Assembly: GCF_000515255.1 (NCBI RefSeq)
Contig: NZ_KI911559.1
Span: 2,243,660 to 2,307,659 of the forward strand
Length of the DNA: 64,000 bases
Source: Rhodovibrio salinarum DSM 9154
Lineage (GTDB): Bacteria > Pseudomonadota > Alphaproteobacteria > Kiloniellales > Rhodovibrionaceae
Direction: 5' to 3'
Part shown: positions 16,734 to 52,680 of the stretch, piece by piece
How the letters are laid out: each line of letters begins with the position of its first letter
How positions within the stretch are numbered: position 1 is the stretch's first letter
The notes under the pieces: model-generated
The model's database searches: none
The model's input: the letters and a program-made list of their open reading frames with translations, nothing else
What the model was told of the DNA's origin: nothing
Position numbers and translations under genes: made by a program

Positions 16734-17354
16734 TTAATTGGTTGGCAGCGGCTTCACCAGGCTGAAGGCGCCGCGCAGCTCGCCCTTCTCGAAGCCGGTG
16801 GCGCCGTCGGCGGGGTAGTTCTCGTCGACCGCGTTGAGAACCTCTTCCTTCACCTCTGTGCCGTGACAGGCGAGGCAGGCTTCTTGGGTCGGGATCGCCT
16901 TCATGTAGTGGACGTAGCGCCGGCCGCCTTCCTCGATCACGGCTACGTCTTCCATCGTCTTGAAGCCCTCGCCGTCGGCGTGGCGCTGCTGGAACGACTT
17001 CAGCACCGCGCGCTCGCGCGGGCTAGGGCTGTTGCGCGGGTTGCGGACCCTGAGCGCGGTGCGGCCGATCGACCAGTCGCTCTCCGCTGATAGCGTGCCG
17101 CCGATCCGGGGCGCCACCTCGTTGCACACGCCGATCGCGTGCGTGGGCCCGCCCTCCTTGATGGCGGCGGTCAATTCGCCCTTCAGTTCCTGGAAGAAGG
17201 TCTTCACCAGCCCGCGGGCGGCCTTGACCTCCTCCTGCGGAACATCCGCGGCCTCGGCGTCCTGCGCGCCTGCGCGATCGGCTGGGACGGCCACGCCGGT
17301 GGCCGCTGCGAGCGCGACGGCGGCGGCGAGCGTACGCCGGATGTGCATTGTCAT
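16734..17354 (-). CDS. DUF3365 (Tll0287-like) c-heme protein, exported
   Basis: I choose the ATG at 17352-17354 because GGAGGCGCAC precedes it directly; the product has 206 residues. A signal peptide (MTMHIRRTLAAAVALAAATG, cut near AGA-QD) is followed by the DUF3365 fold, with an alternative axial ligand region near GVCNEVAP and a single CLACHG heme c motif at about residues 160-165. Tll0287-like proteins are periplasmic heme sensors or redox proteins. It lies downstream of and co-oriented with the bd oxidase genes. An AT-rich element found near three other genes lies 54 bp upstream. Confidence 0.8.
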   Translation of the reverse strand: MTMHIRRTLAAAVALAAATGVAVPADRAGAQDAEAADVPQEEVKAARGLVKTFFQELKGELTAAIKEGGPTHAIGVCNEVAPRIGGTLSAESDWSIGRTALRVRNPRNSPSPRERAVLKSFQQRHADGEGFKTMEDVAVIEEGGRRYVHYMKAIPTQEACLACHGTEVKEEVLNAVDENYPADGATGFEKGELRGAFSLVKPLPTN

Positions 17355-17407
17355 GTGCGCCTCCAAACCTTCCGTTCGGGTGGGATGAGAATTCGCAGTA
17401 CGAATTC

Positions 17408-17513: not shown

Positions 17514-17702
17514 CTACTGCCCCAAAGCGAGCTTGATCGCTAGCCCGACCAGTGAGAGCGCGGCGACGCTGCCCGCCCACAGCACGCCAAACCAGGCGAG
17601 GCGTTTCCAGGCGCGGTCGGCGCCCGCGCGGGCAGGATCGGCGCGGTCTTCGCGGACCACGCCGATCGCCTGGAGGCAGTTGGAAATCTTGGCGCGCGCC
17701 AT
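17514..17702 (-). CDS. DUF2474-type small bd-oxidase subunit
   Basis: A 62-residue protein beginning MARAKISNCLQAIG, with one transmembrane segment (LAWFGVLWAGSVAALSLVGL) near the C-terminus. Its ATG overlaps the cydB stop by one base (TGATG). Small single-span proteins after cydB (CydX/DUF2474 type) stabilise bd oxidases. The assignment rests on size, position and topology. Confidence 0.75.
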   Translation of the reverse strand: MARAKISNCLQAIGVVREDRADPARAGADRAWKRLAWFGVLWAGSVAALSLVGLAIKLALGQ

Positions 17703-18703
17703 CAGTGATAGCCCTCGTTCGGGTCGACCTTGCCGCGGAACACCCAGTAGACGTAGGCCGTGTAGCCCAGGATCATCGGCAGCAGCACGGCCGTGCCGGC
17801 GAGCAGGAACCACAGGCTGCTGTCGGGCGCCGCGCCGTTCCAGATCGTCACCGAATGGGGCACGATGTAGGGATAGAAGCTGATCCCGATGCCGATGTAG
17901 CAGAGCACGAAAAGGCCGTTGGCGGCCAGGAAGGGCAGGGCGTCCGGCCCGCGTTGCAATCCGCGCGCCAGCAGCGCCGCGCAGCCCAGCACCAGTAGCG
18001 GCATCACGCCGCTGAGGACCAGGTTGGGCCAATCGAACCAGCGGGCGAGGTAGGCGTCGTTCAGCAACGGCGTCCACAGACTGACCGAGCCGATCGCCGC
18101 CAGCGTCAGCGCGCCGAATACCCAGGCGAGGCGCACGGCCTGCTGGCGCGGGTGGCCTTCGGTCTTCATCACCATCCAGGTCGCGCCCAAGAGCGCGTCG
18201 CCGACCACCAGCGCGCAGCCGGTCATCACGCTGAACACCGTCAGCCAGTCGAACCAGCCGCCGGCGTAGCTGCGGTTGGCGACCTCGATGCCCTGGACCA
18301 GCGCGCCCAGCGCCACCCCCTGGGCGAAGGCCGCCAGTATCGAACCACCTGCGAAGGCGGCCGACCAGAAGTGCTTGTGCCGCTTGCTGCGCCAGCGGAA
18401 CTCGAACGCCGCCCCGCGGAACACCAGCGCCAGCAGCATCGCCGTCAGCGGCGCGTAGAGGGCGGGCAGGATCGTCGCGTAGGCCAGCGGGAACACCGCG
18501 AACAGGCCGCCGCCGCCCAGGATCAGCCAGGTTTCGTTGCCGTCCCAGACCGGGGCGACCGAGTTCATCATGATGTCGCGGTCCTGCTCGCTTTTCACCA
18601 GCGGGTAGAGGATGCCGATGCCGAGGTCGAAGCCGTCGAGCAGGATGTAGGCCAGGACCGCCACCGCGATCAGCGCGGCCCAGATGGTTGCTGGATCGAT
18701 CAT
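17702..18703 (-). CDS. cydB: Cytochrome bd-type quinol oxidase subunit II
   Basis: A 333-residue multi-spanning protein starting MIDPATIWAALIAVAVLAY with the family signatures LLDGFDLGIG, APVWDGNETWLI and a GGGGLFAVFPLAYA segment. It pairs with subunit I in quinol oxidation and oxygen reduction in the inner membrane. The form of the downstream subunit I matches the cyanide-insensitive CioAB branch. It is followed by a DUF2474 gene and preceded by a truncated cydA 13 bp away, so its function may be lost with its partner. Confidence 0.93.
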   Translation of the reverse strand: MIDPATIWAALIAVAVLAYILLDGFDLGIGILYPLVKSEQDRDIMMNSVAPVWDGNETWLILGGGGLFAVFPLAYATILPALYAPLTAMLLALVFRGAAFEFRWRSKRHKHFWSAAFAGGSILAAFAQGVALGALVQGIEVANRSYAGGWFDWLTVFSVMTGCALVVGDALLGATWMVMKTEGHPRQQAVRLAWVFGALTLAAIGSVSLWTPLLNDAYLARWFDWPNLVLSGVMPLLVLGCAALLARGLQRGPDALPFLAANGLFVLCYIGIGISFYPYIVPHSVTIWNGAAPDSSLWFLLAGTAVLLPMILGYTAYVYWVFRGKVDPNEGYH

Positions 18704-18716
18704 GGCGGTGTGCCTC

Positions 18717-19919
18717 CTATTCCGCGGGGAAGACCTTGTCGGGCGCGACCGAGGCCGCGGGCGTCAGCCCGGCCGAGCGGGTCGGCCCCTCGGGGCGGTC
18801 GCTCTCGCCGGCCTCCGGCGGCTTCGCCATCAGGCGCAGGATGTAGACCGTGCCAGCGCCGAACAGCGTGAAGTAGACGAGGATGAAGGCGACCAGCGAG
18901 GTCGCGACCGCTGGTGCGCCGACGGCTGAAGCGGAGTCGGCCGTGGTCAGCAACCCGTAGACCGTATAGGGCTGCCGGCCGACCTCCGTGGTGACCCAGC
19001 CGGCGAGTACGGCGACGAAGCCGGACGGCGCCATCGCCACGGCCGCGCGCTTCAGCCAGGTGTCGTCGTAGAGCTGCCTGCGCCGACGCTGGATCAGGCT
19101 CCAGAGGCCGACGCCGACCATCGCGAGGCCGAAGGCGACCATGATCCGGAACGACCAGAACACCCAGGCGGCCGGTGGACGCTGGTCTTCCGGGAAGGCG
19201 TCCAGACCCTTCACCGCGCCGTCCCAGTCGTGGGTCAGGATGAACGAGCCGAGGTTCGGGATGCCGATGGAATAGTGCAACTCACCGGCCTCGTCGTCGG
19301 GAATGCCGAACAGGTAGAGCGGGGCGCCGCTCTCGGTCTCGTAGTGGCCCTCCATCGCGGCGATCTTGGCGGGCTGGTGCTCCAGCGTGTTCAGGCCGTG
19401 CAGGTCGCCGGCCACGATCTGCAAGCGCGTGACTACGATCGCCATCCACATCGCCATCGAGAACATGATCCGCGCCCCGCGGTCGCGGCTGTTCTTCAGC
19501 AAGTGCCAGGCGCCCACGCCGCCGACCACGAACGCGGTCGTGAGGTAAGCGGCCAGCACCATGTGCACGAGCCGGTAGGGGAACGAGGGGGTGAAGACGA
19601 TCGCCCACCAGTCATCGGGTACGAACTGCCCGGCGTCGTTGATCGCGAAGCCGGCGGGCGTCTGCATCCAGCTGTTTACGCTCAGGATCCAGAAGGTGGA
19701 GAACAGCGTGCCAAAGGCCACCATGGCGGTGGCGAACAGGTGCAGCTTCGGGCCAACACGGTTGAAGCCGAACAGCATGATGCCGAGGAAGCCCGCCTCC
19801 AGGAAAAAGGCGCTCAGTACTTCGTAGCCCATCAGCGGGCCTACGATCGGGCCTGCCTTGTCGGCGAAGGTGCTCCAGTTCGTGCCGAACTGGTAGGACA
19901 TTACGATGCCCGACACCAC
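18717..19919 (-). pseudogene. cydA: Cytochrome bd oxidase subunit I (CioA type), 5'-truncated
   Basis: The frame runs 400 residues and starts at GTG inside the conserved block VVSGIVMSYQFGTNWS, which in complete CydA/CioA proteins lies about 65-70 residues from the N-terminus. The missing part includes the first membrane helix and the heme b595 histidine. Directly upstream in frame is a stop codon, and the neighbouring DNA is an IS5-family transposase remnant. The rest is intact (FFLEAGFLGIMLFG, GWVTTEVGRQPYTVYG). The short Q-loop and GRQPY motif fit the cyanide-insensitive group. I infer that an IS-mediated deletion removed the start and promoter. Confidence 0.85.
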
Positions 19920-21046: not shown

Positions 21047-21982
21047 TTACGGCCGCGCTGGGTTGGTAACCGGCCGGCTGGCGTCCTGCGTCCAGACGTG
21101 CATCGAGCCGTCGAAGAGCTGGGCGTTCTCGTTGCCAAGCACCTTCGACATCACGAACCAGGTCAGCGCGGAGACATGGCCGCTGTTGCAGTACGCGATC
21201 GCGCCATTGTCCATCGACGCGCCCTGGTGGGCGTAGACCGCGCGCAGCGTTTCCGTGTCCCGAAGCGTGGCTGGGCCCTTAGCTGAGACGTTCAGGGTGA
21301 AGGGCACGTTCACCGCGCTCGGGATGTGGCCGGCAGCGTAGACGTAGCCCGCCTGCTCAAGGCCGAGGTAGTAGGGCATCGGCCGGTTGTCGGTCAGCTG
21401 CACGCCGGCGTCGGTGCGTGCGGCGTCGACCTCCGCCACCGTGGCGAGCACGCTCTCGTCCGGGTTTCCGGAGGTGTAGTCGCCCGCCGTGATCTCGACC
21501 TCGCCGGTCGCCATGTCGTGCCCGGCCGCCCGCCAGGCCGCGTTGCCGCCGTCCAGGATCGCGACGTCGTCATGGCCGTAATAGGCGAATGTCCAGTAGA
21601 GCCGCGCCTGCGTGGTGATCTGCCCGGCAGCCTTGCCTGGAGAGGTGATAACCACAGGCTCGTCCGTGTCGACGCCGGCGTCGCGCATCAGCTGCTGGAA
21701 GGTCTCGGCGTCCAGGCGGACCTTCTGCCGCTCGACCCCGTCGATGACGCGCGTGGTACGCACCGCGTCCCAGCTAACGGGTGCGGCACCAGCGATGTGA
21801 GCCTCAGCAAAGGCGTCCAGATTGCGGCGCACGTCCAACACAGCGACCTCGCCGCGGTGCTCGGCCAGCCAGTCGGCGTTCACGACGGGACCGGGTGTCA
21901 CGCGCTCGGCCAGTGCGGGGCTGACGGTGATCGCGCTCGCTGCGAGAAGGGCGGCGGCGATCGGAACCTTCGGGTATGCCAT
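21047..21982 (-). CDS. Periplasmic two-domain rhodanese (sulfurtransferase)
   Basis: A 311-residue protein with a signal peptide (MAYPKVPIAAALLAASAITV, cut near ALA-ER). Two rhodanese domains follow. The first has VLDVRRNLDAFAEAHIAGA but a cysteine-free loop (ITSPGKAAG), so it is structural. The second carries the active cysteine in IAYCNSGHVSA. It should move sulfane sulfur between thiosulfate or persulfides and acceptors in the periplasm. An ATATTC element shared with other stress genes lies 56 bp upstream, and the SulP, DUF442 and MBL genes are its neighbours on the same strand. Confidence 0.88.
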   Translation of the reverse strand: MAYPKVPIAAALLAASAITVSPALAERVTPGPVVNADWLAEHRGEVAVLDVRRNLDAFAEAHIAGAAPVSWDAVRTTRVIDGVERQKVRLDAETFQQLMRDAGVDTDEPVVITSPGKAAGQITTQARLYWTFAYYGHDDVAILDGGNAAWRAAGHDMATGEVEITAGDYTSGNPDESVLATVAEVDAARTDAGVQLTDNRPMPYYLGLEQAGYVYAAGHIPSAVNVPFTLNVSAKGPATLRDTETLRAVYAHQGASMDNGAIAYCNSGHVSALTWFVMSKVLGNENAQLFDGSMHVWTQDASRPVTNPARP

Positions 21983-22166: not shown

Positions 22167-23921
22167 TCATGTTGCCGTAGCTACCTGGGCACGGCGGACC
22201 GTGTCCGGGGCCAGGGCCTCCATTGCTTGATGCTGGCTTAGGAACACGCGCCCGCTGAGGTCGTCGAGGAAGGTGCTCCGCGCCAAGTTATCCATCACCG
22301 GGCCTTTCACTTCGGAGAGGTGAAAGGTAACGCCGGCATCTCGCAGACGCGCATTGATCGCCTCCAGGCTCTCCAGAGCACTGGCGTCGATCACGTTGAC
22401 GGCGGAGCACATCAGGATCACGTCGGACACGTCGGGCGATCGCGCGACCAAGTCGTAAACCGTGTCTTCGAGATATCGGGCATTGGCGAAGTAAAGACTT
22501 TCGTCGACGCGCAGGGTTAAGACCTGCGGACTTGTCACCACGCTGTGCCGTTCGATGTTGCGGAAGTGCTCGGTGCCCGGCACCTGGCCGACGACAGCCG
22601 CGTGCGGCCGGCTGGTTCTCCAGATGTGCAGAGCGAGCGACAGCCCGACACCTGTCACCACCCCAGCTTCAACGCCGACGCCAAGGACGATCACCATTGT
22701 CGCGGCCATCGCGGCGAAGTCGGTTTTTGAATAGCGGTAGGTCCGCCGGATTGCACCGAGATCGATCAGCGACAGCACGGCGACGATGATCGTTGCCGCC
22801 AGCGTCGCTTTTGGCAGCGCCTGAAATAGCGGTGTGAAGAAAAGGGCGGTGGCCGCGATGCCGGTAGCCGTGAAGACCCCGGCCATCGGCGTTTCCGCGC
22901 CCGCGTCGAAGTTCACGACCGACCGAGAAAAGCCGCCGGTGACGGGGAAGCCGCCGGAGAACGCCGATGCGATGTTTGCCGTACCGAGACCGGTGAGTTC
23001 CTGGTTGGCGTCGATCCGCTGACGTTTCTTTGCCGCCAGGGTCTGTGCGACCGACACGGACTCGACGAACCCGATCACGCTGATCAACAGCGCCGAGGTC
23101 GCGAGGCTGGACCATAGCTCGAGCTCAAGCGGCGGAACTGTGAAAGGCGGTAGCCCTTGCGGCACATCCCCAACCACAGAGACACCCTGAGTGTCGAGGT
23201 CGAACACTGCGACCGTGGCAGAGGTCACGACGACGGCGGCCACGGGGCCGGCTTTGGCCAGCATGTCGGCTGCGAAAGGCGGTAGCCCGACGCGCTTGCG
23301 CAGCAGCGGTTTCAACTGCGTGCGCACCCAGAACAGAAACGCTGTCGCGCCCGAACCCAGCAGCAGCGTCCAGCCATGCGTCCGCTCCAGCTGCTGCGCC
23401 AGCGAGTGCCCCATCTGAACAAGGGTATGACCGTGTGCGTCGACCCCCAAGATGTGCTTCAGCTGACTGACCGCGATCAGGATTCCGGACGCGGTGATAA
23501 AGCCAGAAATGACGGGATGGCTCAGCAGGTTCGCCAGGAACCCGAGCCGTAGCAGACCCATGGTAAGCAGCATCAAGCCGGACAGCAGGGCGAGGGCAAC
23601 CGCAGCGCCGAGGTAGCCCTCGGTGCCCGGTTCTGCGACCCTTGAGATGGTGGCGGCCGTGAGGAGGGACACAACCGCCACCGGTCCGACGGCAAGCGCA
23701 CGGCTCGATCCGAACAGTGCATAGGCCACCAGCGGCAGGATGCTGGCATAGAGGCCGACTTGCGCCGGTAGCCCCGCTAGCATGGCGTAGGCCAGGCTTT
23801 GCGGGATCAACATGATGGTGACGATGATCGCCGCGACAAGATCCGAGGACAGCTCGCGGCGGCCGTAGTGCCGGAGCCATGTGAGCGCCGGAAGGATCCG
23901 CGACGACGACGGGGAGATCAT
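22167..23921 (-). CDS. SulP-family anion transporter with STAS domain
   Basis: A 584-residue protein. The SulP signature MLIPQSLAYAMLAGLPAQVGLYAS lies near residues 37-60 in the membrane domain, which runs to about residue 420 with around 10-12 spans. A cytoplasmic STAS domain follows, with LYFANARYLED and NVIDASALESLEAINARL. SulP proteins carry sulfate, bicarbonate or other anions; the substrate cannot be told from sequence. The neighbouring sulfurtransferase, DUF442 and MBL genes favour sulfate or another sulfur oxyanion produced by persulfide oxidation. The upstream DUF442 gene is 62 bp away, so they may be co-transcribed. Confidence 0.9.
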   Translation of the reverse strand: MISPSSSRILPALTWLRHYGRRELSSDLVAAIIVTIMLIPQSLAYAMLAGLPAQVGLYASILPLVAYALFGSSRALAVGPVAVVSLLTAATISRVAEPGTEGYLGAAVALALLSGLMLLTMGLLRLGFLANLLSHPVISGFITASGILIAVSQLKHILGVDAHGHTLVQMGHSLAQQLERTHGWTLLLGSGATAFLFWVRTQLKPLLRKRVGLPPFAADMLAKAGPVAAVVVTSATVAVFDLDTQGVSVVGDVPQGLPPFTVPPLELELWSSLATSALLISVIGFVESVSVAQTLAAKKRQRIDANQELTGLGTANIASAFSGGFPVTGGFSRSVVNFDAGAETPMAGVFTATGIAATALFFTPLFQALPKATLAATIIVAVLSLIDLGAIRRTYRYSKTDFAAMAATMVIVLGVGVEAGVVTGVGLSLALHIWRTSRPHAAVVGQVPGTEHFRNIERHSVVTSPQVLTLRVDESLYFANARYLEDTVYDLVARSPDVSDVILMCSAVNVIDASALESLEAINARLRDAGVTFHLSEVKGPVMDNLARSTFLDDLSGRVFLSQHQAMEALAPDTVRRAQVATAT

Positions 23922-25489: not shown

Positions 25490-26131
25490 CTAGACCTGCG
25501 TCGTGCAGAAGTACCAGTCGGTGTAATCGTAGCCCTGCTCGGCGCGCTTCTCGGCCTCCTCGACTGTCGCCGGCGGCGGCACGATCGCCCGGTCGCCCGA
25601 CTGCCAGGCCTCGGGCGTGGCGACGCCGTTGGCGTCGGCGCACTGCAGCGCCTGCACCAGTCGGACGATCTCGTCGATGCTACGGCCGGTGGGCATAGGG
25701 TAGTAAAGCATCGCCCGCAGCGTGCCCTCGGGATCGATCACGAAGGTCGCGCGCACCGCGGAGGTGTCGCTCGCCCCCGGCATGATCATGCCGTAGGCAC
25801 TGGAGACCTGCATCGAAATGTCGTCGATGATCGGGAAGCGGATGTCGACGCCGAAGTTCTGTTTGATGCTGCGCACCCAGGCGATATGCGAATGCGTGCT
25901 GTCGACCGACAGACCGATCAGATCGCAGCCGAGATCGAGAAACCGGTCGTGGTTACGTGCGAAGGCCATAAACTCGGTGCTGCATACCGGCGTGAAGTCG
26001 GCCGGGTGGGAGAACAGCACCAGCCAGCGGCCTTTATAGTCGGCCAGTTTACGTGGGCCGTGGGTGGTCTTGGTGTGGAAGTCCGGTGCCGGCTCGTTCA
26101 GGCGCGGCAGCGTCGGCTGCGTCTCGTTCAT
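25490..26131 (-). CDS. Peroxiredoxin (Prx6 / 1-Cys-like group)
   Basis: A 213-residue protein with the peroxidatic motif PADFTPVCSTEF (C50) and the conserved arginine in SAVRATFVIDPEG. The long C-terminal extension ending YTDWYFCTTQV adds a cysteine (C209), typical of the large Prx6-type enzymes. It reduces peroxides in the cytoplasm. It is divergent from the OxyR-like gene, and the 160-bp gap between them contains an ATATTC element. Confidence 0.92.
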   Translation of the reverse strand: MNETQPTLPRLNEPAPDFHTKTTHGPRKLADYKGRWLVLFSHPADFTPVCSTEFMAFARNHDRFLDLGCDLIGLSVDSTHSHIAWVRSIKQNFGVDIRFPIIDDISMQVSSAYGMIMPGASDTSAVRATFVIDPEGTLRAMLYYPMPTGRSIDEIVRLVQALQCADANGVATPEAWQSGDRAIVPPPATVEEAEKRAEQGYDYTDWYFCTTQV

Positions 26132-28292: not shown

Positions 28293-28865
28293 TCAGCCGA
28301 TCTTCACGGTCGTATTGTCGACGAATTCGTACGGCGGCACCACGAGGTTGCTCGGGGCCGGGCCCTTCCTCACGCGCCCCGAGGTGTCGTAGTGAGAGCC
28401 GTGGCAGGCGCAGAACCAGCCGCCCCAGTTGCCGCGCGGTTCGCTTGGCTTGTTGCCAAGCGGGATGCAGCCCAGGTGGGTGCAGACCCCGACCACGATC
28501 AGCCATTCCGGACGTTTGACGCGCGCTTCGTCCGGCTCCGGATCGCGCAGCGTGTCCATGTCGGTCGCGCGAGCCTGTTCGATCTCCGCCTGCGTCCGCT
28601 TGCGCAGGAATACCGGCTTTTTGCGCCACATTACGCTAATCGCCATGCCTTCCTGGACCGGCGAGAGGTCGGCTTCGATGCTGGCAAGCGCCATCTGCGC
28701 CGCACTCGGGTTCATCTGGTCGATGAACGGCCAAGCCGCTGCCGCCGCACCGACCGCTGCCGTCGTGCCGGTAGCGAGGAGTAGGAAATCGCGCCGGCCT
28801 ATCTGCTTGTCGTCGCCCGTGCTGTGGGGCCCGGCCGGCTGCAGGTCGTTCGACCGAGATGTCAT
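28293..28865 (-). CDS. petA: Rieske iron-sulfur subunit of cytochrome bc1
   Basis: A 190-residue protein with a twin-arginine motif ([11 protein letters not shown], residues 23-33), a membrane anchor, and cluster ligands CTHLGC (128-133) and CACHGSH (152-158). It takes electrons from quinol to cytochrome c1. In most alphaproteobacteria petA is directly followed by petB and petC. Here they are 5 kb away and the 3' side is an istB remnant, so the operon appears broken. The upstream region shares a 17-bp element with petB. Confidence 0.95.
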
Positions 28866-28932
28866 GACCTATCGCCTCCTGTTTCGATCCGTCCGGCCAT
28901 GAGGGTCACTGAAGCCGGATGTAAAAAACCTG

Positions 28933-28949
28933 TATTGTGCATATAACTA
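28933..28949 (-). promoter_or_regulatory. Element shared by petA and petB, copy 1
   Basis: On the minus strand it reads TAGTTATATGCACAATA, 68 bp upstream of the petA start. Fourteen of 17 bases match the petB copy. It lies in an AT-rich patch and may be an operator or promoter core. Confidence 0.5.
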
Positions 28950-29371
28950 TTAAGGCCGAACGCCATTCGTATTCAATTAGATGCAACTGTTTGTCGCAGG
29001 GACGGCTGAGGTCGGCCGCTTGCGAGGGCAGGGCCTGGCAAAGCCGTGTATGCGGCATTGATTTTCGCAATCCATATATTAGATATCACTGATATATCGG
29101 AGTGCCGCATCTGCGGCGTTCACAGGGTCACCAGCCGCGAGGAACGACCACCGCTGATGCACAAGTTGTCCGGACATTCCACCCCGGCCGGCGCGGCTTC
29201 TGCTTATGCGTGCCGGTTGCGCCGGTGCGGGCTTGGACCACTGCCTCATGAGGACATCAGCGGCACGTCGCCTGGACCGGTGGGTAAACCGTACGCGTCC
29301 CAAAGGTCCGCGTAGGATACGCGACGAAACGTCATCTGCGGGTAACACAAGCCGCTTCTTACGTCCTCACT
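28950..29371. other. Divergent intergenic region with AT-rich patch
   Basis: About 420 bp between petA and the DUF2652 gene. The segment 29070-29098 (CATATATTAGATATCAC then GATATATCGG) is AT-rich and palindromic in parts, which suits a regulatory region. No gene is supported; a translated frame at 29046 has no family. Confidence 0.4.
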
Positions 29372-30481: not shown

Positions 30482-30561
30482 TTGAGATGTTTAGGGTCCC
30501 GGCGACATTTTGCAGCGCAAAATCATGTGCTGGTCTAAAGGTTTAGATGAAAGGAGCCTGG

Positions 30562-32291: not shown

Positions 32292-32723
32292 ATGAAGCGT
32301 GTTTTACTTGTCCTGGCGGCGGCGCTCGCGCTGGCGGGCCCGGCCACGGCGCAGGATAAGCCCAATCTGGTGACTGTCCTGAGCGCCGAGCATCCGCAAA
32401 CGCAATTGATGGCGATGGTGCTGACCATGCAGTCGGTGCAGCAGGGCGCCGAGGCGCGAGTGCTGCTGTGCGGGCCGGCCGGCGATCTGGCGCTGAAGGA
32501 GGCGCCGGCGGCTGCGACCGCGCCTCAGGAGCCCAAGGGCATGAGCCCGCAGGGCCTGATGCGCAAGATCATGGAGACCGGCACCCCTGTCGAGGTCTGC
32601 GCGATCTACCTGCCGAACAAGGGCGTGGGCGCCGAGGCGCTGATCGACGGTGTCGGACAGGCGGAGCCGCCGGCGATGGCGGGCCATCTGCTGGCCGACG
32701 ACACCCGGATTCTGTCGTTCTAA
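32292..32723 (+). CDS. Exported DsrE-like protein
   Basis: A 143-residue protein with a signal peptide (MKRVLLVLAAALALAGPATAQ). The body resembles DsrE/DsrF-fold proteins: EHPQTQLMAMVLTMQSVQQGAEARVLLCGPAGDLAL in segments, PKGMSPQGLMRKIMETG and a conserved-looking cysteine in VEVCAIYLPNKG. Such proteins bind or carry sulfane sulfur; here probably in the periplasm. Two cysteines (about 57 and 97) could be the reactive sites. It fits the sulfur theme of the region. A terminator follows. Confidence 0.75.
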   Translation: MKRVLLVLAAALALAGPATAQDKPNLVTVLSAEHPQTQLMAMVLTMQSVQQGAEARVLLCGPAGDLALKEAPAAATAPQEPKGMSPQGLMRKIMETGTPVEVCAIYLPNKGVGAEALIDGVGQAEPPAMAGHLLADDTRILSF

Positions 32724-33495: not shown

Positions 33496-33622
33496 GTCTC
33501 GTGACCTCTGTTCGAAAGCAGCAGCCGTTCGGAACAATCCTTGTCGAATGATGTCCCGATGTCCGCCGGCATCGGGACGACGCGTTGGTTGGATACGCAA
33601 GGACCGCGCGAAGGCCTGCGGT

Positions 33623-33973
33623 TCAACAGCTGTGGTCGTGCACCTCGGCGTGCGAGATCTGTCCCAGCAGATAGTCCCGAACGGCTTTCTCGGGGTCGGT
33701 TTCGTTGGTCGCGACGGCATCGACGCCGCGCTTCGCCAGCTTGGCAACGAAGTTGTGCCCGCAGCTGCCGCACAGGACGACATCCATCCCGAAGATCGGG
33801 TGGCCGTCCTTGTTGCCCCAGTCGTGCAGGGCCTGCTCCTTGGGCAGGTCCAGCTGGTCGATCAATTCGGCGCCGCCGCCCGGCGCGCCCCGATAGACGA
33901 GAAAGCGCCGGGTCCGCCCGGCGTGCGGCGTGATGGTCCGGAAGTTCTGGCTGGTGACGGCGATGCGGTACAT
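33623..33973 (-). CDS. NifX/NifB-accessory (FeMo-cofactor-binding-like) protein
   Basis: I prefer MYRIAVTSQNFRTITPHAG (start 33973, GGAG upstream); an earlier ATG at 34018 overlaps the petC stop and would couple translation. The 116-residue product has the NifX/YjeB fold: AVTSQNFRTITPHAGRTRRF, VVLCGSCGHNFVAKLAKRGV and ATNETDPEKAVRDYLLG. Two cysteines (CGSC) and histidines (HAEVHDHSC tail) could bind a metal cluster. No nitrogenase genes are near, so this is a standalone member. It is the third gene after petB and petC. Confidence 0.8.
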   Translation of the reverse strand: MYRIAVTSQNFRTITPHAGRTRRFLVYRGAPGGGAELIDQLDLPKEQALHDWGNKDGHPIFGMDVVLCGSCGHNFVAKLAKRGVDAVATNETDPEKAVRDYLLGQISHAEVHDHSC

Positions 33974-34014
33974 GAACTCGCTCCAGGTTGCGGGTAACGG
34001 ACGGGCAGGCGCGC

Positions 34015-34788
34015 TCATTTCTCGACGTCGGCCCAGATCTTGCGCTGCACAGCGTACAGCAGGGCGGTCAGCACGATCAGGAACAGGATCACCTTCAGGC
34101 CCAGACGCTTGCGCTCCTCCATGTGCGGGTTGGAGGCCCAGTGCAGGAAGGCGGTCACGTCATGGGCCATCTGCTCGGGCGTGGCCTGGGTGCCGTCCTG
34201 ATAGTCGACCGCGCCCTGGACCAGCATCTGCGGCATGCTGATCTTGTGGCTGGGGTAGTACGTGTTCCAGTACTGCCCCGGCTGCAGGTTGGCGTCCTGC
34301 GGCGCCTCCTCGTAGCCCAGCAGCAGGGCCCGGATGTACTCCGGCCCGCCCGGCCGGGCGTTGGTGATCACCGACAGGTCCGGCGGGATGGCGCCGTTGT
34401 TGGCGTTCTTCGCCGCTTGCTTGTTGTCGTAGGGGAAGGGGAAGGCATCGGTCGGCTCCGCCGGACGCTCGTACATCTCGCCCTGGTCGTTCGGGCCGTC
34501 CTCGACCGTGTATTGCGCGGCGATCGCCTCGACCTCGTCTTCGCTGTAGCCGATGTCCTCGAGGTTGCGGAAGTGGACATACTTCATGCCGTGGCAGGTC
34601 GAACAGACGGCGTTGTAGACCTGCAGGCCACGCTGCACGGTGGCCCGGTCGAAGGTCCCGAACACGCCCTCGAACTGCCAGGTGTGTTCGGGCAGCGCCG
34701 GCGTCTCGGCGGCCTCGGCCGGGCCAGACGCGAGCCCAAGCCCGGCGGCGGCGATCGCGGCGGCGATCAGCTTACGTATCTCTGCCAT
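34015..34788 (-). CDS. petC: Cytochrome c1
   Basis: I start at MAEIRKLIAAAI (ATG at 34786-34788); 257 residues. A signal peptide (cut near AEA-AE) is followed by heme motif VCSTCHGMKYV (C62 to H66), a distal methionine region near SMPQMLVQG, and a C-terminal anchor (VILFLIVLTALLYAVQR). It accepts electrons from the Rieske protein and passes them to a soluble cytochrome c. It lies 14 bp after petB, and the next gene may overlap its stop. Confidence 0.95.
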   Translation of the reverse strand: MAEIRKLIAAAIAAAGLGLASGPAEAAETPALPEHTWQFEGVFGTFDRATVQRGLQVYNAVCSTCHGMKYVHFRNLEDIGYSEDEVEAIAAQYTVEDGPNDQGEMYERPAEPTDAFPFPYDNKQAAKNANNGAIPPDLSVITNARPGGPEYIRALLLGYEEAPQDANLQPGQYWNTYYPSHKISMPQMLVQGAVDYQDGTQATPEQMAHDVTAFLHWASNPHMEERKRLGLKVILFLIVLTALLYAVQRKIWADVEK

Positions 34789-34802
34789 TGTCCTCTTACC
34801 TC

Positions 34803-36059
34803 CTATTCCGCTGGGCTGGCCGGGGCGATCGCGGGCTGCGCGCTGCCGGACAGGACCGGCTTGGAGATGCTGTGCGGGCGCGGCTTGGGGCGTTCGAACA
34901 CGCCCAGGAGCGGCAGGATCACCAGGAAGTAGGCGAAGTAGTACGCCGTCGCGACCTGCCCGATGGTGGGCCAGATGCCGCTCGGCGGCATCGCACCGAC
35001 GTAGCCGAGCACGATCACGTCCAGCACCAGCAGCCAGAAGAACTGCTTGAAGATCGGCCGATAGCGCCCGGAGCGCACCGGGCTGCGGTCGAGCCATGGC
35101 AGGGCGAATAGGATCAGCACAGAGCCGAACATCAGCACCACACCGCCCAGCTTGTCCGGCACCGCGCGCAGGATCGTGTAGAACGGCAGGAAGTACCACT
35201 CCGGCACGATGTGCGGCGGCGTCACCAGCGGGTCCGCGGGCACGTAGTTGTCCGCGTGGCCCATGTAGTTCGGCGCGTAGAACAGGAAGACCGAGAAGAC
35301 GATCAGGAACACGCCCAGACCGAACAGGTCCTTGATCGTGTAATAGGGGTGGAATGGCACCTGGTCCTGCTGGCCCTTGGGCTCGATGCCGGTCGGGTTG
35401 TTGGAGCCGTAGCGGTGCAGCGCCACTAGGTGCAGCAGCACCGCGCCCACGATCAGGAACGGCAGCAGGTAGTGCAGCGAGAAGAAGCGCTGCAGCGTCG
35501 GGTTGCCGACGGCGAAACCGCCCCACAGCCAACGCGTGACCTCGTCCCCGAAAATCGGCACGGCGGAGAACATGTTGGTGATCACCGTCGCGCCCCAGAA
35601 GCTCATCTGGCCCCAGGGCAAGGTGTAGCCCATGAAGGCGGTCGCCATCATCAAGAGCAGGATGATCACGCCCAGGCCCCACAAGACCTCGCGCGGTTGC
35701 TTGTAGGAGCCGTAGTACAGGCCCCGGAACATGTGGATGTAGACCACGATGAAGAAGAACGAGGCTCCGTTCATGTGGATGTAGCGCAGCAGCCAACCGT
35801 AGTTGACGTCGCGCATGATCTTCTGGATCGAGCCGAACGCGTGATCCACGTGCGGGGTGTAGTGCATCGCCAGGACCACACCGGTCGCAATCATGATGAC
35901 CAGGATGATCCCGGCGAGCGATCCGAAGTTCCAGGCGTAGGTCAGGTTCTTCGGCGTCGGATAGAAGCGCAGGTGCTGGTCGGCGAAGTTGATGACCGGA
36001 AGCCGGTCGTCGAGCCAGCCCAGCACGCCCTTGTAGGGTGTCTGGTAGTCAGCCGCCAT
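34803..36059 (-). CDS. petB: Cytochrome b of the bc1 complex
   Basis: A 418-residue eight-span protein. Key sites are [22 protein letters not shown], the first b-heme region, [21 protein letters not shown] (Qo side, split over the motif), [12 protein letters not shown] containing PEWY, and the paired heme histidines in [11 protein letters not shown] and [22 protein letters not shown]. It oxidises quinol in the inner membrane. petA is not upstream; instead there is a 21-bp inverted repeat and then the octaheme cytochrome genes. Confidence 0.95.
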
Positions 36060-36157
36060 GGCGCGACCTCCTCTCGCGATCGATCACGTCGCAAACCCGC
36101 GCGCGGCTGCGTGCCGGGGTCTTCGCGTGTCGTCGGTCAGGGTGGAAAGCGCCGCCC

Positions 36158-36181
36158 TAAGTTATATTTTAGATATAACTA
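36158..36181 (-). promoter_or_regulatory. Inverted repeat upstream of petB, and petA-petB shared element copy 2
   Basis: AGTTATAT and ATATAACT form a perfect 8-bp inverted repeat with a 5-base spacer, about 100 bp upstream of petB. The minus-strand sequence TAGTTATATCTAAAATA (36165-36181) matches the element upstream of petA in 14 of 17 bases. It touches the stop of the upstream cytochrome b gene. Confidence 0.55.
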
Positions 36182-36850
36182 TATCCGAGTGCGGATGCGA
36201 CCGTCCGAGGGTTCGGACTCAGTGTCGCAGACCGGGCAGCTTTCGCGTGCGTTGGGCCCGGTCTCGACCGCTTCGTAGCCGGTGACCATCGCCTTCAGGT
36301 GCTGGAACACCGTCTCGCCGGTCGTGATCATGTAGACGTGCCCGATCAGGAACACGAGGGTGGCGTAGGCGGTTGCGATGTGCACCGTGGCCACCGGCGC
36401 GAGCGGCACCGGCAGCACGTCGCCGAATAGATTATAGGTCAGGTAGATCAGCCCGGTGATCCAGATCGCTGGCGAGATCACCGCGTTGAACGTCAGGTAG
36501 GCAAACAGTTGCAGCGGATTGTGCTTGCGCCGGCGGCTCGGTCGGAAGGGATGCGGCTCGCCCCGGAAGATGCCGCCGGCGTAGAAGCGCAGCACCGCCC
36601 ACAGCTTGTCCGTGGTGGGCACGTACTGCCGCCATTCGCCGGTGGCGACGTGCCAAAAGATCGCGAACACCCAGACCACCATCAGCGCGATGGCGCAGGT
36701 CACATGCACGGTCGCCGCCTCGGCGTAGCCCAGCACCCGGTAGGTGCCGTGCAGTTCGAAGCCGGTCGCAAGCATGCCGATAATCAGCAGCGACTGCGAC
36801 CAGTGCCAGGCGATCTCGAACGGGCTGAACAGCCGGATCCGCCGTCTCAT
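36179..36850 (-). CDS. Membrane cytochrome b (b561/FdnI-like), partner of the octaheme cytochrome
   Basis: A 223-residue four-span protein: EIAWHWSQSLLIIGMLATGF, ATVHVTCAIALMVVWVFAIFWH, LTFNAVISPAIWITGLIYL, and VATVHIATAYATLVFLIGHVYM. Histidines in WHW, VHV, VHI and GHVY fit two b-type hemes, as in formate dehydrogenase or Ni-hydrogenase b subunits. The tail carries CPVCDTE. Its ATG overlaps the stop of the octaheme cytochrome in ATGA, so they probably form one quinone-linked complex. Confidence 0.85.
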   Translation of the reverse strand: MRRRIRLFSPFEIAWHWSQSLLIIGMLATGFELHGTYRVLGYAEAATVHVTCAIALMVVWVFAIFWHVATGEWRQYVPTTDKLWAVLRFYAGGIFRGEPHPFRPSRRRKHNPLQLFAYLTFNAVISPAIWITGLIYLTYNLFGDVLPVPLAPVATVHIATAYATLVFLIGHVYMITTGETVFQHLKAMVTGYEAVETGPNARESCPVCDTESEPSDGRIRTRI

Positions 36851-38481
36851 CGCGCACGCCTCCGGTAGCGGAAGAAAGCCCTAAGTGACGCGTGGCCGAG
36901 TACGCCCGCGAACGTCGCCAGCACCGCCAGCCAGCCGATCCGGTCCAGCCACGCCGGGGCGTCGCGCCCGGCAATGTAGAAGCTGTCCAGTCCGGTCAGC
37001 CGGCTGTCCTGGCTGTGGCAGTCGGCGCAGCCGACCGCCTGGTCGGCGGGCGCGACCATGTGGGTGATCGGCCAGTACATCTTGGTCTCGACGAAGCCGA
37101 CCTCGCCGGAAAACGGCAAACCCTCGGCCGCCATCGCGGTCTCGATCGCCGGCTCCCATTCCAGGTTCTTCCAGTAGGCAGTGTCGTCCTGGCCGAACAG
37201 CTGCATCAGCACCAGCCGATCGCGCTTGGCGTCGTAGGGCTGCTTGCCGCGCATGATCTTGAACGGCCAGATCCGTGCGTCGGAATCCTCCGGTCCGCCC
37301 GCGAAGCTGTTGATCGCGACCACGCTCTCGGGATCGATCTTGTCCGTGGCTTCGGTGTAGCGCATGTCGCCGTCGAACCAGGCGTAGGACGGGATGTAAT
37401 CCTCCCGCCATTCGATCTCTCCCCAGCGGGTCCAGTAGCTGATCCGTCCGTCGGCGTTGGTCTCGTGGATGCGGCTGCCGTCCTCGGCCAGCCGGCCGGC
37501 CTTCGACCAGTCCCACCAGGTCTTGGTCTGTACACCGCCGCGGGCGATTTCGGGGATGTGGCAGGTCTGGCAGGCGACCCGGTCGCTGTGCTGGTTGAGC
37601 GTGCGCGCGACGTAGCTGCCGTCGTCGTGAACGTCGACACCGTGGCAGGATTCGCAGGTCGCAGCCTGCCGGCGTATACCCGGCTTACCGGTGCCGTGCA
37701 TGTCACGCGCGGTCATGTCGTAGCGCCCGCCGGCCAGCTCGTGGCCGCTGGCGACGTGGCAGTCCTGGCAGGCCATGTCCCCGCCCTCGGGGCTCATGTG
37801 CACGTCGAGCGATCTGGGCGCGTCGATCAGGGAGGAATCCAGGTCGCCGTGCTTGGAGCCGTCGCCGCCGCCGCCGTTGAAGTGGCAGCTGCCGCAGCTG
37901 GCGACGTCCGGCGGGCCGACGTTGCGTGCGACCTTGCCAAGGTCGGGCGGCGTCAGCGTCTTGCCGTGCACTGTGGTGGCGGTCTCCAGCACCCGGCCCG
38001 CGTCCTTGGGCGCCTTATGGTAGGTGCCGGTGGTGTCGTGGCAGACCAGACAGTCGACCCGGGTGTCGTCGGAGAAGTCGAACGACGCGTCCTCCCAGCC
38101 GTAGCCGGTGTGGCAGGAGGTGCAGCGCGGCTCGTTGGTGCGCACATTGGTGCAGAAGTTGTTCAGCACGTGCCGCTTGCCGAGCTGTTGGCCGGTGTCC
38201 GGGTTGGTGTAGTCCCAGGTCCAGTGGATTGACTGGCGGACCTGATGCCCGGCCTCGGTGTGGCACTCCAAGCACGCCCGGGTGACCTCGCGGCCGCTGT
38301 CGAAATCACCCTGCAGCGCTTCGAACTTGCTGTGATCGGCCGTCGAGACGTCCCGCGCTGGCGTTGGCGCGGGCTGCTGCCCGTCTTTTGCCGAGGCGAC
38401 CTGCGGCAGCGTGGCCGCGGCCGCGAGCAGTGAGATCGCAAGACCGGCAAGACGGATCCGGCGGGTTCGGCGCGGGGGCAT
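36847..38481 (-). CDS. Octaheme tetrathionate-reductase-type cytochrome c (OTR)
   Basis: A 544-residue protein with a signal peptide (RLAGLAISLLAAAATLPQVASA) and eight CxxCH motifs in order: CLECH, CTSCH, CLVCH, CGSCH, CQDCH, CESCH, CQTCH and CADCH. A C-terminal membrane anchor lies near residues 515-535. This matches octaheme tetrathionate reductase (OTR) family proteins. In Shewanella OTR reduces tetrathionate, and nitrite or hydroxylamine slowly in vitro. The true substrate is uncertain. The adjacent cytochrome b would exchange electrons with quinol. It opens the minus-strand run that continues to petB. Confidence 0.9.
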   Translation of the reverse strand: MPPRRTRRIRLAGLAISLLAAAATLPQVASAKDGQQPAPTPARDVSTADHSKFEALQGDFDSGREVTRACLECHTEAGHQVRQSIHWTWDYTNPDTGQQLGKRHVLNNFCTNVRTNEPRCTSCHTGYGWEDASFDFSDDTRVDCLVCHDTTGTYHKAPKDAGRVLETATTVHGKTLTPPDLGKVARNVGPPDVASCGSCHFNGGGGDGSKHGDLDSSLIDAPRSLDVHMSPEGGDMACQDCHVASGHELAGGRYDMTARDMHGTGKPGIRRQAATCESCHGVDVHDDGSYVARTLNQHSDRVACQTCHIPEIARGGVQTKTWWDWSKAGRLAEDGSRIHETNADGRISYWTRWGEIEWREDYIPSYAWFDGDMRYTEATDKIDPESVVAINSFAGGPEDSDARIWPFKIMRGKQPYDAKRDRLVLMQLFGQDDTAYWKNLEWEPAIETAMAAEGLPFSGEVGFVETKMYWPITHMVAPADQAVGCADCHSQDSRLTGLDSFYIAGRDAPAWLDRIGWLAVLATFAGVLGHASLRAFFRYRRRAR

Positions 38482-38697
38482 CGTACGCGATCCAGGCTGT
38501 GAGTTCGTAGGACGAACGTGTCACAGACATATTAGTCGACGCTTAATTAACCGGCAAGCAACGGACGTAATGTTGGCGCACGCGTGTCCCGGCTCTGGTG
38601 TCATTAGGCACACCGACCGACACAGGCACGCCGGCGCATGCTGTAAACCCCGGAAACACGGGGCTCCCGGCGTGTGGATCGGCGAGGGGTCACGGTG

Positions 38698-38784
38698 CCG
38701 ATCGGCTCGGTAATTGCTTGATTGAGCACGGATGTGCGGGCTTGACCCCTGTCGCCCACGCACAGTCCTGGCGCTTGCGCCAAC
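38698..38784 (+). repeat. Dispersed repeat family 1, copy B
   Basis: The partner of 16501-16583, same orientation, in the gap between the octaheme cytochrome and the channel gene. The gap from 38482 to 38867 holds no other supported feature; a short hairpin CCCCGG/CACGGGG lies near 38650. Confidence 0.6.
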
Positions 38785-38867
38785 GCGTCGCATGGCCGCC
38801 CAGCGGCCCGCCGCCGACATGATCCGTTGACGTATTCGAGGAGTGGAATGCGAAAAGGGGTTTGTCG

Positions 38868-39851
38868 ATGGCGCAGTCGTTGGCAGAGCGGCCCGAACCG
38901 TGCTGGATCCGCAGCCGCTGGATCGCGCAGCTGCCCGTACCGCTGTTCGCAGTGACCATGGGCCATGCCGGCTTGGGGCTGGCGTGGCGCAGCGCGCACG
39001 CGACCTTCGGCGTGCCGCTCGCGGTTGCGCAGGCGCTGATGGCGTTCGCCGCTGGCGCGTTTGCCCTGGTCGCCCTGGTCTACGCGCTCAAGGTGGTAGC
39101 TTGTCCGGGCGGCGTAGCCGCCGACTTCCGCCATCCGGTGATGATGAACTTCTTCCCGGCGATTTCGATCGGCCTGCTCCTGCTCGCCGTCGGCGCGCTG
39201 CCGCACGACCGACAGCTGGCGGAGGAGCTTTGGATCGCCGGCGCGCTCCTGCACCTTGCCCTGGCGGTAACGATTATCGGCCGCTGGATACGCCGGAACA
39301 CCGAAATCCAGCACGTCAGCCCCGCCTGGTTCATCCCGGTCGTGGGCAATATCGTGGTGCCGATCGCGGGTGTGCCGCTCGGCTACGAGACGGTGTCGTG
39401 GTTCTTCTTCTCGGTCGGCCTGACCTTCTGGGTTCCGCTGTTCACCATCGTGCTCTACCGCCTTATCTTCCACGATCCGCTGCCGCCGCAGATCGCGCCG
39501 CTGCTGTTCATCCTGATCGCCCCGCCGGCGGCCGGCTTCCTCGCCTATATGCAGTTGAACGGCGGCACGCTCGACGTCCTGGCCTATCTGTTGGCCGCGA
39601 GCGCGCTGTTCATTGCTCTTGTTCTGGCCGGAATCGCGGGCCTGTTCCTGCGCCTGCCGTTCGCTTTGTCGTGGTGGGCCTTCACCTTCCCGGCGGCTGC
39701 GCTGTCCTGCGCGATGACGGAGGTACACGCGCTGCTGCCCGGGCCCGCGACGCAAGCGGTGGCTCTCGCCGCGTTGGTCTTCGCCACTGCAATCATCGCG
39801 TTGGTGACGGTGCGCACGCTGGCGGCGCTGGTCACAGGCCAGCTGTTTTAG
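38868..39851 (+). CDS. SLAC1/TehA-family (TDT) anion channel or transporter
   Basis: A 327-residue membrane protein; I use the ATG at 38868 with AAGGGG upstream. About ten hydrophobic segments follow the TDT pattern: VPLFAVTMGHAGLGLAW at the start, FRHPVMMNFFPAISIGLLLLA, and the late LRLPFALSWWAFTFPAAA. The family exports anions such as sulfite (Ssu1), tellurite-related or malate. Given the neighbours, sulfite export is attractive but unproved. Confidence 0.85.
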   Translation: MAQSLAERPEPCWIRSRWIAQLPVPLFAVTMGHAGLGLAWRSAHATFGVPLAVAQALMAFAAGAFALVALVYALKVVACPGGVAADFRHPVMMNFFPAISIGLLLLAVGALPHDRQLAEELWIAGALLHLALAVTIIGRWIRRNTEIQHVSPAWFIPVVGNIVVPIAGVPLGYETVSWFFFSVGLTFWVPLFTIVLYRLIFHDPLPPQIAPLLFILIAPPAAGFLAYMQLNGGTLDVLAYLLAASALFIALVLAGIAGLFLRLPFALSWWAFTFPAAALSCAMTEVHALLPGPATQAVALAALVFATAIIALVTVRTLAALVTGQLF

Positions 39852-39858
39852 CGGCGGC

Positions 39859-40689
39859 TCAGCCGTGTCTCAGCGCGGGCTCTTCCGCTGCGCTGGCGAA
39901 CTGCAGCGTCATCACCTCGCCGGCGGCGAGCGGGCGCCATGCCTCGTCCGTGAGCGGCACGCTGGAGATCAGCGTGACCTCCTGGCAGCCGCCGGGCGGG
40001 CAGGCCTCGGTGCGCACTAGCTTGCCGTCGTTGGGATTGCAGGTCCGCGTCAGGCTGACCAGTCCTGGCGGCGCGATCTCGTCGTCGTGCTGCCGGCGTT
40101 CGTGGCCATGGGCGAACAGCAGTTCGCCGTCCGCGTAGAGGAAGTTGGCGGGGCCGAAGGCGCGCAGGTCGCGGGCGAAAGCTTCGACAGCCGACTGCCG
40201 TGCTGCGACGCTCGGCGCCGTGTGACCGTCGCGGAGCCCCGCGATCCACAACGGCGCCAAACGGTCCATCAAGGCGCAGAAGGCGATCTCGGAATCGGTC
40301 GTACCGATTGGCAAATGGCGGTCCAGGTCGCCGCGCCAGCGGCGGTCGATTGCGTCCAGATCGCCGTTGTGGGTGAACACGTGCATCCGCCCGCCCAGTT
40401 CCCGGACGAACGGCTGCGTATTGGCCAGCATGCAGTCGCCCACCGTCGCCTTACGGATGTGCGCGAGGGCGAGACGGGTCGGGCGCTGCTGGCTGCGCAC
40501 GAACGGGACCCAAGGGCTCCGCGCCGCCGGTTCTGGCTCGCGTAGCCTGCGTACGTCGTAGCCGTCGTAGAAGGTCACACCCCAGCCGTCAGCGTGCGGC
40601 CCCGCCTCGCCGCCGCGACGCGCGAAACGCTCAAGCGACGAGGTCAGGGTCGCGGGATAACGGCTGGCCATGGCCAGCAACTCGCACAT
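39859..40689 (-). CDS. Class II glutamine amidotransferase (YafJ type)
   Basis: A 276-residue protein starting MCELLAMASRYP, so the catalytic Cys2 becomes N-terminal after Met removal. Other Ntn-hydrolase features are HADGWGVTFYDG, LAHIRKATVG and FTHNGDLDAID. YafJ-like enzymes hydrolyse glutamine or related amides; specificity unknown. It lies 42 bp after the DUF2892 gene on the same strand and faces the channel gene with an 8-bp gap. Confidence 0.88.
   Translation of the reverse strand: MCELLAMASRYPATLTSSLERFARRGGEAGPHADGWGVTFYDGYDVRRLREPEPAARSPWVPFVRSQQRPTRLALAHIRKATVGDCMLANTQPFVRELGGRMHVFTHNGDLDAIDRRWRGDLDRHLPIGTTDSEIAFCALMDRLAPLWIAGLRDGHTAPSVAARQSAVEAFARDLRAFGPANFLYADGELLFAHGHERRQHDDEIAPPGLVSLTRTCNPNDGKLVRTEACPPGGCQEVTLISSVPLTDEAWRPLAAGEVMTLQFASAAEEPALRHG

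Positions 40690-50223: not shown

Positions 50224-52680
<2,457 letters not shown>

Follow-up and report, generated by a model that had tools for sequence, protein, structure and literature searches.

The locus described here raises the question of what reaction is carried out by an octaheme c-type cytochrome and the cytochrome b encoded beside it in the salt-loving purple bacterium Rhodovibrio salinarum DSM 9154, and in which direction electrons pass between the two. The genes lie on a 64,000-nucleotide stretch of contig NZ_KI911559.1 (positions 2,243,660 to 2,307,659), referred to below as the window; coordinates are those of the window unless a different source is named. The reading judged slightly better than even is a quinol-linked periplasmic reductase of tetrathionate-like compounds, and confidence that a tetrathionate-like compound is the substrate is moderate. 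The initial annotation of this DNA had left tetrathionate, nitrite, hydroxylamine and polysulfide side by side. Of these, the tetrathionate-like reading is now ahead of nitrite or hydroxylamine.

The octaheme gene (36847..38481, reverse strand) begins with ATG and encodes 544 amino acids, with an N-terminal signal-like helix and a C-terminal membrane anchor. The protein has eight CXXCH motifs and no CXXCK motif. It matches TIGR04315 with 613.9 bits (curated cut-off 375) over model positions 1-440 of 440, and also matches PF11783. Used as a single sequence, it retrieves one PDB entry at E ≤ 0.001, which is 1SP3, the octaheme tetrathionate reductase (OTR) of Shewanella oneidensis (E 4e-104). With a profile as query, a cytochrome c552 (5ZE8, E 2e-4) is also retrieved from the PDB, weakly and over part of its length. 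Weak matches in the Pfam, NCBIfam, and PDB sequence searches are mostly to general multiheme cytochromes, NrfH, and this cytochrome c552. By fold, 1SP3 is again alone at E ≤ 0.001 (E 9e-39, TM 0.84 by target length). The mean pLDDT of the predicted model is 67.9, a middling value. Residues 510-543 form one helix in this model, which is the predicted membrane anchor. Judged by motifs and model coverage, the open reading frame (ORF) is a full-length OTR, in agreement with the initial annotation of an anchored tetrathionate-reductase-type cytochrome. It is the only TIGR04315 gene in the genome (4,176,524 bases, one contig).

Two other octaheme identities were rejected. CXXCK at the active-site heme is described as the mark of ONR (PMC12285233), and this motif is absent from the window protein and from all 131 aligned rows. 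For HAO, no entry was found at E ≤ 0.1 in Pfam, NCBIfam, or the PDB sequence searches. Among OTR, HAO and ONR, whose comparison was suggested initially as a check, motifs and model matches favour OTR, and the tree described below includes 1SP3.

The alignment has 131 rows, two sequences having been dropped beforehand (L001, identical to the window protein, and L067, which has 12 CXXCH motifs and lies at a contig end). The lysine at 1SP3 position 153 is present in 131 of 131 rows, and its window equivalent is K210. The cysteine at position 64 (C110) is found in 130 rows, with leucine in L118, and position 150 (D207) is aspartate in 126 rows and asparagine in five. Positions 153, 64 and 150 are taken as active-site residues of 1SP3. 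In the Shewanella OTR, the ligand of the active-site heme is reported to be a lysine outside CXXCH (PMC12285233), and heme II is named as the catalytic heme. The eight CXXCH motifs and the conserved lysine suggest that the catalytic heme of the window protein would be lysine-ligated as well. Inspection of the lysine and cysteine had been proposed earlier. It succeeds by alignment to 1SP3, where both are conserved, and fails in the structural model, whose residues 196-279, including K210, have pLDDT below 50, so that the active-site geometry is not readable.

The anchor helix also contains conserved residues. All 125 tailed rows have H530, and 124 of them have R534. The fixed position of H530 within a membrane helix suggests that it may be located at a heme-b or quinone junction. 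This invariant histidine is an addition for which no earlier description was found in the literature searched.

The cytochrome b gene (36179..36850, reverse strand) encodes 223 amino acids and overlaps the octaheme gene by four nucleotides. The protein matches PF01292 (prokaryotic cytochrome b561 / Ni-hydrogenase cytochrome b) with 81 bits against a cut-off of 30.1. Its predicted model has four long helices and a mean pLDDT of 87.5, as expected of the overlapping four-span cytochrome b first described. Its score against the PhsC model NF011582 (thiosulfate reductase cytochrome b) is 104.6 bits, below the cut-off of 204. The nearest solved fold by Foldseek is FdnI of E. coli formate dehydrogenase-N (E 4e-3, probability 1.00), and HyaC of E. 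coli hydrogenase-1 is also retrieved (E 2e-2, probability 1.00). Both have 16-17% identity to the cytochrome b, and neither fold match reaches E ≤ 0.001. Four histidines (H16, H49, H157, and H171) are unchanged across 34 rows, and a profile match to HyaC (E 3e-4) aligns all four. Two b hemes are therefore likely, and the protein is probably a diheme cytochrome. FdnI and HyaC presumably serve subunits bearing a C-terminal helix. Their partners, which we take to be iron-sulfur subunits with low-potential donors, are unlike the octaheme partner found here.

Relatives of the pair were collected in two samples. The first comprises 271 stretches in the GTDB set, of which the best 80 loci were kept and read by all-ORF searches. 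The cytochrome b gene lies directly downstream on the same strand in 78 of these 80, and the two exceptions (L006 and L067) reach contig ends. A pairing that recurs this often is not due to chance. The nearest named relative is Rhodovibrio sodomensis (L002), with 92% identity. The second sample is an even draw of 398 genomes from the phylum of the window, 45 of which carry a gene over the TIGR04315 cut-off. Outside the Rhodovibrio genome itself, 49 of 53 over-cut-off matches were read, those left out being G165:C44, G141, G224, and G281. A hydrophobic tail is present in 44 of the 49, and five are tail-less. Cytochrome b accompanies 43 of the 44 tailed matches, as a separate gene in 41 (that of L114 is cut by a contig end) and fused to the octaheme protein in two (L117 and L119). 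For the tailed L127, no cytochrome b was found, and none was found within the flanks read of the five tail-less matches. Tail and cytochrome b presence thus agree in 48 of the 49 loci read. The pair is also present in both plasmid-collection matches inspected, from Paracoccus ferrooxidans and Photobacterium.

On the strength of the gene pairing, the natural fusions, and the match between tail and cytochrome b, it is near certain that the two proteins would form one complex. A quinone-linked octaheme complex had been predicted from the window alone, and the fixed pair, the fusions, and the four invariant histidines support this prediction. Among the 49 matches read in the 398-genome draw, the tailed kind that pairs with a cytochrome b (44 matches) is much commoner than the tail-less Shewanella form. 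Paracoccus is a genetically workable genus, with relatives of the octaheme gene on large plasmids in P. pantotrophus and P. versutus, and the presence of the pair in this genus makes the substrate question testable outside Shewanella. The anchor histidine and the natural fusions offer handles on how the enzyme may contact the quinone pool.

A tree of 109 rows was built by a quick method, after an 88% identity filter had removed 22 rows, R. sodomensis included. The tail-less OTRs and 1SP3 fall on one side of a branch (SH-aLRT 97), and the next row to join them is the tailed L116 (SH-aLRT 96). The window OTR groups with tailed rows from alphaproteobacteria and gammaproteobacteria; its branch is long, and the exact position of this branch is uncertain.

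Some of the related cytochromes b are extended. A C-terminal receiver domain (PF00072) was identified in 14 of 14 long proteins scanned with Pfam (L117, L119, L105, L108, L110, L120-L126, L128, and L130); L113 and L129, of similar length, were outside the scan. In L117 and L119, octaheme protein, cytochrome b and receiver make up a single polypeptide. No description of octaheme-receiver fusions or of the persulfide link was found in the open-licence literature, and the fusions are likewise an addition with no earlier description in the literature searched.

The neighbourhood was described at the outset as rich in sulfur genes, and this is borne out. On the reverse strand, at lower coordinates than the pair, the window contains a Tll0287-like domain protein (16734..17366), cytochrome bd oxidase subunits II and I (17702..19919), a rhodanese with two matched stretches (21047..21982), a SulP sulfate permease (22167..23921), the sulfurtransferase-like and persulfide dioxygenase-like parts of Blh as two genes (23984-24409 and 24503-25414), and a peroxiredoxin (25490..26131). 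The Blh parts match NF040641 at positions 3-128 and 138-423, each below the cut-off for the whole protein, and TIGR01244 is matched over its cut-off. An OxyR-like LysR gene is also present, with a score under the OxyR cut-off. Divergent from the octaheme gene lies a SLAC1/TDT-type anion channel gene (38862..39851, forward strand). Homologues of this channel occur near OTR in L038, L078, L136, and L144, and those of the Tll0287-like protein are close to OTR in L142, L151, L144, and L078.

Several of these genes recur together elsewhere. In R. sodomensis, the peroxiredoxin, Blh parts, SulP, and rhodanese lie within 10 kb of the pair, and SLAC1 and cytochrome bd were not found within the 21.6-kb locus. 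The genome G190 carries, on a single strand and in a span of 14.4 kb, homologues of bd, SulP, the Blh parts, cytochrome b, the octaheme protein, SLAC1, peroxiredoxin, and Tll0287. Their identities to the window proteins are 63% (SulP), 56% and 47% (Blh parts), 67% (peroxiredoxin), 49% (octaheme), 48% (cytochrome b), 45% (SLAC1), 42% (Tll0287), and 28-29% (bd). L078, a gammaproteobacterial metagenome-assembled genome, has on one strand, in order, a metallo-beta-lactamase-fold gene (product 28% identical to that of the window), Tll0287, bd, SLAC1, octaheme, and cytochrome b. In L007 (Marinobacterium), the pair is followed downstream by the dioxygenase part, the Blh sulfurtransferase part, SulP, and peroxiredoxin. 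The shared sulfide/persulfide island is a further addition without an earlier description in the literature searched.

The tie was examined in 20 tailed loci from the 398-genome draw against 20 offset regions of the same genomes, with query families picked after the window and the first loci had been viewed; regions were shorter for L140 and L141 (test) and L172 (control). Rhodanese was found in four loci versus no controls, metallo-beta-lactamase in two versus one, peroxiredoxin, SulP, bd, and SLAC1 each in two versus none, Tll0287 in three versus none, and a DsrE-like protein in one versus none. NifX-like and dihydrolipoyl-dehydrogenase-like proteins had no match in either set of 20 regions. 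An unselected Pfam scan of 123 neighbour proteins, with ORFs over 700 amino acids excluded from the comparison, gave rhodanese (3), AhpC-TSA (3), Sulf_transp (2), and Lactamase_B (2) among the 25 families listed of 153; none of these four is among the 25 families listed of 185 for 142 control proteins. The tie between the pair and its sulfur-gene neighbourhood is suggestive, not strong.

The mechanism proposed is as follows. The octaheme subunit would be exported and fold in the periplasm as an OTR with a lysine-ligated catalytic heme 2. Its single C-terminal helix would hold it beside the diheme cytochrome b in the inner membrane. The cytochrome b would oxidise quinol, its likely partner, and electrons would pass through its two hemes, across the membrane and into the octaheme wire, to an active site reducing tetrathionate (or a close polythionate) to thiosulfate. 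Such a complex would replace CymA and the small-tetraheme shuttle, with the cytochrome b doing both jobs. In Rhodovibrio, it may return over-oxidised sulfane compounds to thiosulfate within the sulfide/persulfide island, and may also act as an extra quinol sink.

Energetics bear on the direction. The potential of ubiquinone is near +100 mV. If the cytochrome b is FdnI-like, its quinone site is presumably on the cytoplasmic side. For the thiosulfate/tetrathionate couple, a value of +198 mV is reported (PMC9562282). Because this is above ubiquinone, and the quinone site would be cytoplasmic, electrons moving outward to tetrathionate would run downhill both chemically and electrically. In the opposite sense, from thiosulfate to quinone, they would have to climb both gradients, which favours the reductase direction. 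The direction of electron flow, initially said not to be fixed, is thus less open than claimed, with the FdnI/HyaC analogy and the potential of the couple favouring quinol to tetrathionate.

The main rival keeps the same complex and gives it a different cellular job, the reduction of nitrite or hydroxylamine to ammonium, for detoxification or respiration, downstream of a periplasmic nitrate reductase. It is considered unlikely, though it is the alternative to be taken most seriously. OTR was described in 2004 and its role in physiology is still called unclear; its reported in vitro substrates are tetrathionate, nitrite, and hydroxylamine. The growth tests reported for Caldithrix abyssi, which has a putative OTR, did not support the predicted respiration of sulfur compounds, so that an OTR alone is not proof of such respiration.

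A number of observations weigh against the favoured reading, and several of them support this rival. The first is the in vitro reduction of nitrite and hydroxylamine by OTRs. Enzyme searches of the Rhodovibrio genome covered SoxB, SoxY, NapA, NirK, NirS, NrfA, and NirB. NapA is present over its cut-off. No match was found in this genome for NirK, NirS, or NrfA, where each search had one control genome over the cut-off, and all its NirB-type matches are below the cut-off. SoxB had no match in the genome; SoxY had none either, but the control genome gave none as well, which makes this negative uninformative. From the NapA match and the lack of matches to NirK, NirS, NrfA, and SoxB, the organism may produce nitrite while obtaining no thiosulfate through Sox. 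The OTR gene of Paracoccus ferrooxidans has a nitrate reductase gene downstream, beginning at a distance of about 8 kb, and a cyclic-nucleotide-domain gene separates the two. In the window, a RirA/NsrR-like Rrf2 gene (27472-27963) lies about 9 kb away. The octaheme model is poor around K210. In the neighbourhood comparison, any of rhodanese, metallo-beta-lactamase, peroxiredoxin, SulP, DsrE-like, or Tll0287 was found in 7 versus 1 of 20 regions, which is weak (Fisher p 0.044), and the stricter set without peroxiredoxin and Tll0287 gave 5 versus 1 of 20 (p 0.18). Many of the matches come from L143 and L144, and the recurrent neighbours in Rhodobacterales loci are unrelated cell-envelope and lipid genes. 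Over the 398 genomes, SoxB is found in 12 of 41 tailed carriers and 47 of 357 others, a weak association confounded by kinship (p 0.01), and 22 of the 41 have neither SoxB nor NapA. The 41 are the 45 carriers less four with only a tail-less gene, and include G141, G224, and G281, whose loci were not read.

The estimate for nitrite or hydroxylamine rests on NapA, on the Nir, Nrf, and SoxB negatives, and on the Paracoccus nitrate reductase. NapA also occurs in four of four genomes with only a tail-less OTR. Among tailed carriers its association is not significant (15 of 41 versus 89 of 357, p 0.13); as a test of substrate, the SoxB and NapA co-occurrence was set aside as too weak and confounded by kinship. 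Further points against the rival are the neighbours in the window, G190, L007, and L078, which are largely sulfide/persulfide genes, and the reported performance of the Beggiatoaceae OTR BOGUAY_2386, which was better on tetrathionate than on nitrite (PMC6449678). In Magnetospirillum gryphiswaldense, MSR1_25550, once called a hydroxylamine oxidoreductase, has been refiled as an OTR and is reported as unchanged with oxygen or nitrogen source (PMC12774639).

A more speculative proposal, which we regard as rather improbable, is that the pair would be a constant component of a mobile module for handling persulfide (Blh, SulP, peroxiredoxin, rhodanese, SLAC1, Tll0287, and cytochrome bd). The true substrate would then be a sulfane or sulfonate compound made by the module rather than free tetrathionate. 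In some lineages, the receiver domain on the cytochrome b would make the enzyme a direct reporter of the quinone or sulfur redox state.

Operation in reverse, with a periplasmic sulfur compound oxidised and electrons delivered to quinone and on to cytochrome bd or bc1, is improbable to a greater degree. It would accommodate the cytochrome bd genes, which are no more than about 10 kb from the pair in L142, L144, and five of the L002-L081 loci, and 17 kb away in the window. A second bc1 follows the pair in Rhodovibrio, and the nearest folds, FdnI and HyaC, are ones that we take to feed quinone. With the couple at +198 mV (PMC9562282), above ubiquinone, thiosulfate would hardly drive this reaction, and even less readily with the membrane potential opposing it. 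The donor would have to be of low potential, for example sulfide or polysulfide. We know of no OTR activity with either as donor. That the genes are merely adjacent, with the octaheme protein receiving electrons from other carriers and the cytochrome b having a different role, would fit with the finding of no biochemistry on the Rhodovibrio pair in the literature searched, and is made very improbable by the near-universal pairing, the overlap, the fusions, and the agreement of tail and cytochrome b.

The remaining genes near the pair include those for bc1. Its cytochrome b (34803..36059, reverse strand) follows both genes on the same strand, as initially noted for petB, with the correction that it is one 418-amino-acid protein having N- and C-terminal Pfam parts. 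Cytochrome c1 comes next (about 34015..34803, reverse strand, start inferred). The Rieske iron-sulfur protein gene (28293..28865, reverse strand), about 5 kb from the bc1 b and c1 genes, is their probable partner. The genome has two bc1 cytochrome b genes, the other at C1:1144472. Among the loci read, only in Rhodovibrio does bc1 adjoin the pair.

A palindrome, AGTTATAT-N5-ATATAACT, was identified at 36160..36180 (no strand assigned), where the cytochrome b gene ends, upstream of the bc1 cytochrome b. It is perfect at this place in both Rhodovibrio genomes (L002:12299-12319), with differing spacers. The Rieske and Tll0287 genes are preceded by weaker copies (28928-28948, 29070-29090, and 17407-17427). 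The 19-base core has two exact sites in the genome and one with two mismatches, and none of 100 shuffled windows equalled the two matches (up to three mismatches) of the real window. The palindrome is a candidate operator. FNR boxes gave 10 near matches in the window versus 7.1 expected, none of them within the 380 bases that precede the octaheme gene. A scan of 33500-39900 gave no sigma-70 site and nine terminator-like sites versus 3.2 expected.

A Nitro_FeMo-Co (NifX-like) domain protein is encoded at 33623..34018 (reverse strand), with homologues near OTR in L002, L004, L007, L020, and L038. A small secreted-looking protein (32292-32723) has no Pfam match and a weak NCBIfam match below its cut-off; in Marinobacter loci it has homologues on the strand opposite to the octaheme gene, at a distance of about 1.7 kb. 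Two pyridine-nucleotide-disulfide oxidoreductase genes (30547-31998 and 41197-42627), 83% identical and on the same strand, flank the bc1-octaheme-SLAC1 stretch and are a possible trace of duplication or insertion. The second scores above the cut-off for a dihydrolipoyl dehydrogenase model. The Rrf2-family regulator gene, downstream of the Rieske gene, is nearest to RirA and NsrR and below both cut-offs. A peroxidase gene (50224-52665) has two PF00141 stretches, like a catalase-peroxidase, and neighbours a TonB-dependent receptor gene (52788-55412).

The pairing of an anchored OTR with a cytochrome b is already in print and is common in other bacteria. The OTR of Shewanella oneidensis, 1SP3, shares with the window protein the eight CXXCH motifs, the position-153 lysine, the position-64 cysteine, and the fold, and differs in being soluble, as reported (PMC6449678). 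It is thought to receive electrons through CymA and then a small tetraheme cytochrome. Its tree neighbours (L088, L090, and L101) are tail-less, and none of them has a cytochrome b gene within about 1.4 kb. Other reported arrangements are otr beside divergent soxY and soxZ in lucinid symbionts (PMC11237559) and, in Dethiobacter, rhodanese genes beside distant octaheme relatives with about 20% identity to OTR or SirA (PMC10376724).

A well-characterised clade of known substrate with the same partner, named initially as what would overturn that first reading, was found in part. BOGUAY_2386 of the Orange Guaymas Beggiatoaceae, itself unplaced in our tree, is an OTR whose gene has that of a thiosulfate-reductase-type cytochrome b downstream of it. 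The protein reduced up to 93 umol tetrathionate/min/mg in vitro, above its nitrite activity. It differs from the window pair in having thiosulfate/polysulfide reductase genes downstream as well, and the reported assays are of the octaheme protein alone (PMC6449678). The same source relates it to the OTR of Sedimenticola, and Sedimenticola L038 shares the large tailed group of the window protein in the tree. In Thermosulfurimonas dismutans, TDIS_1882/TDIS_1883 comprises an octaheme OTR and, close by, a cytochrome b that has been suggested to tie it to the membrane (PMC4911364), a prediction whose likeness to the window pair is by description. With its C-terminal anchor and adjacent cytochrome b, the window pair fits this type, an anchored OTR with its own cytochrome b.

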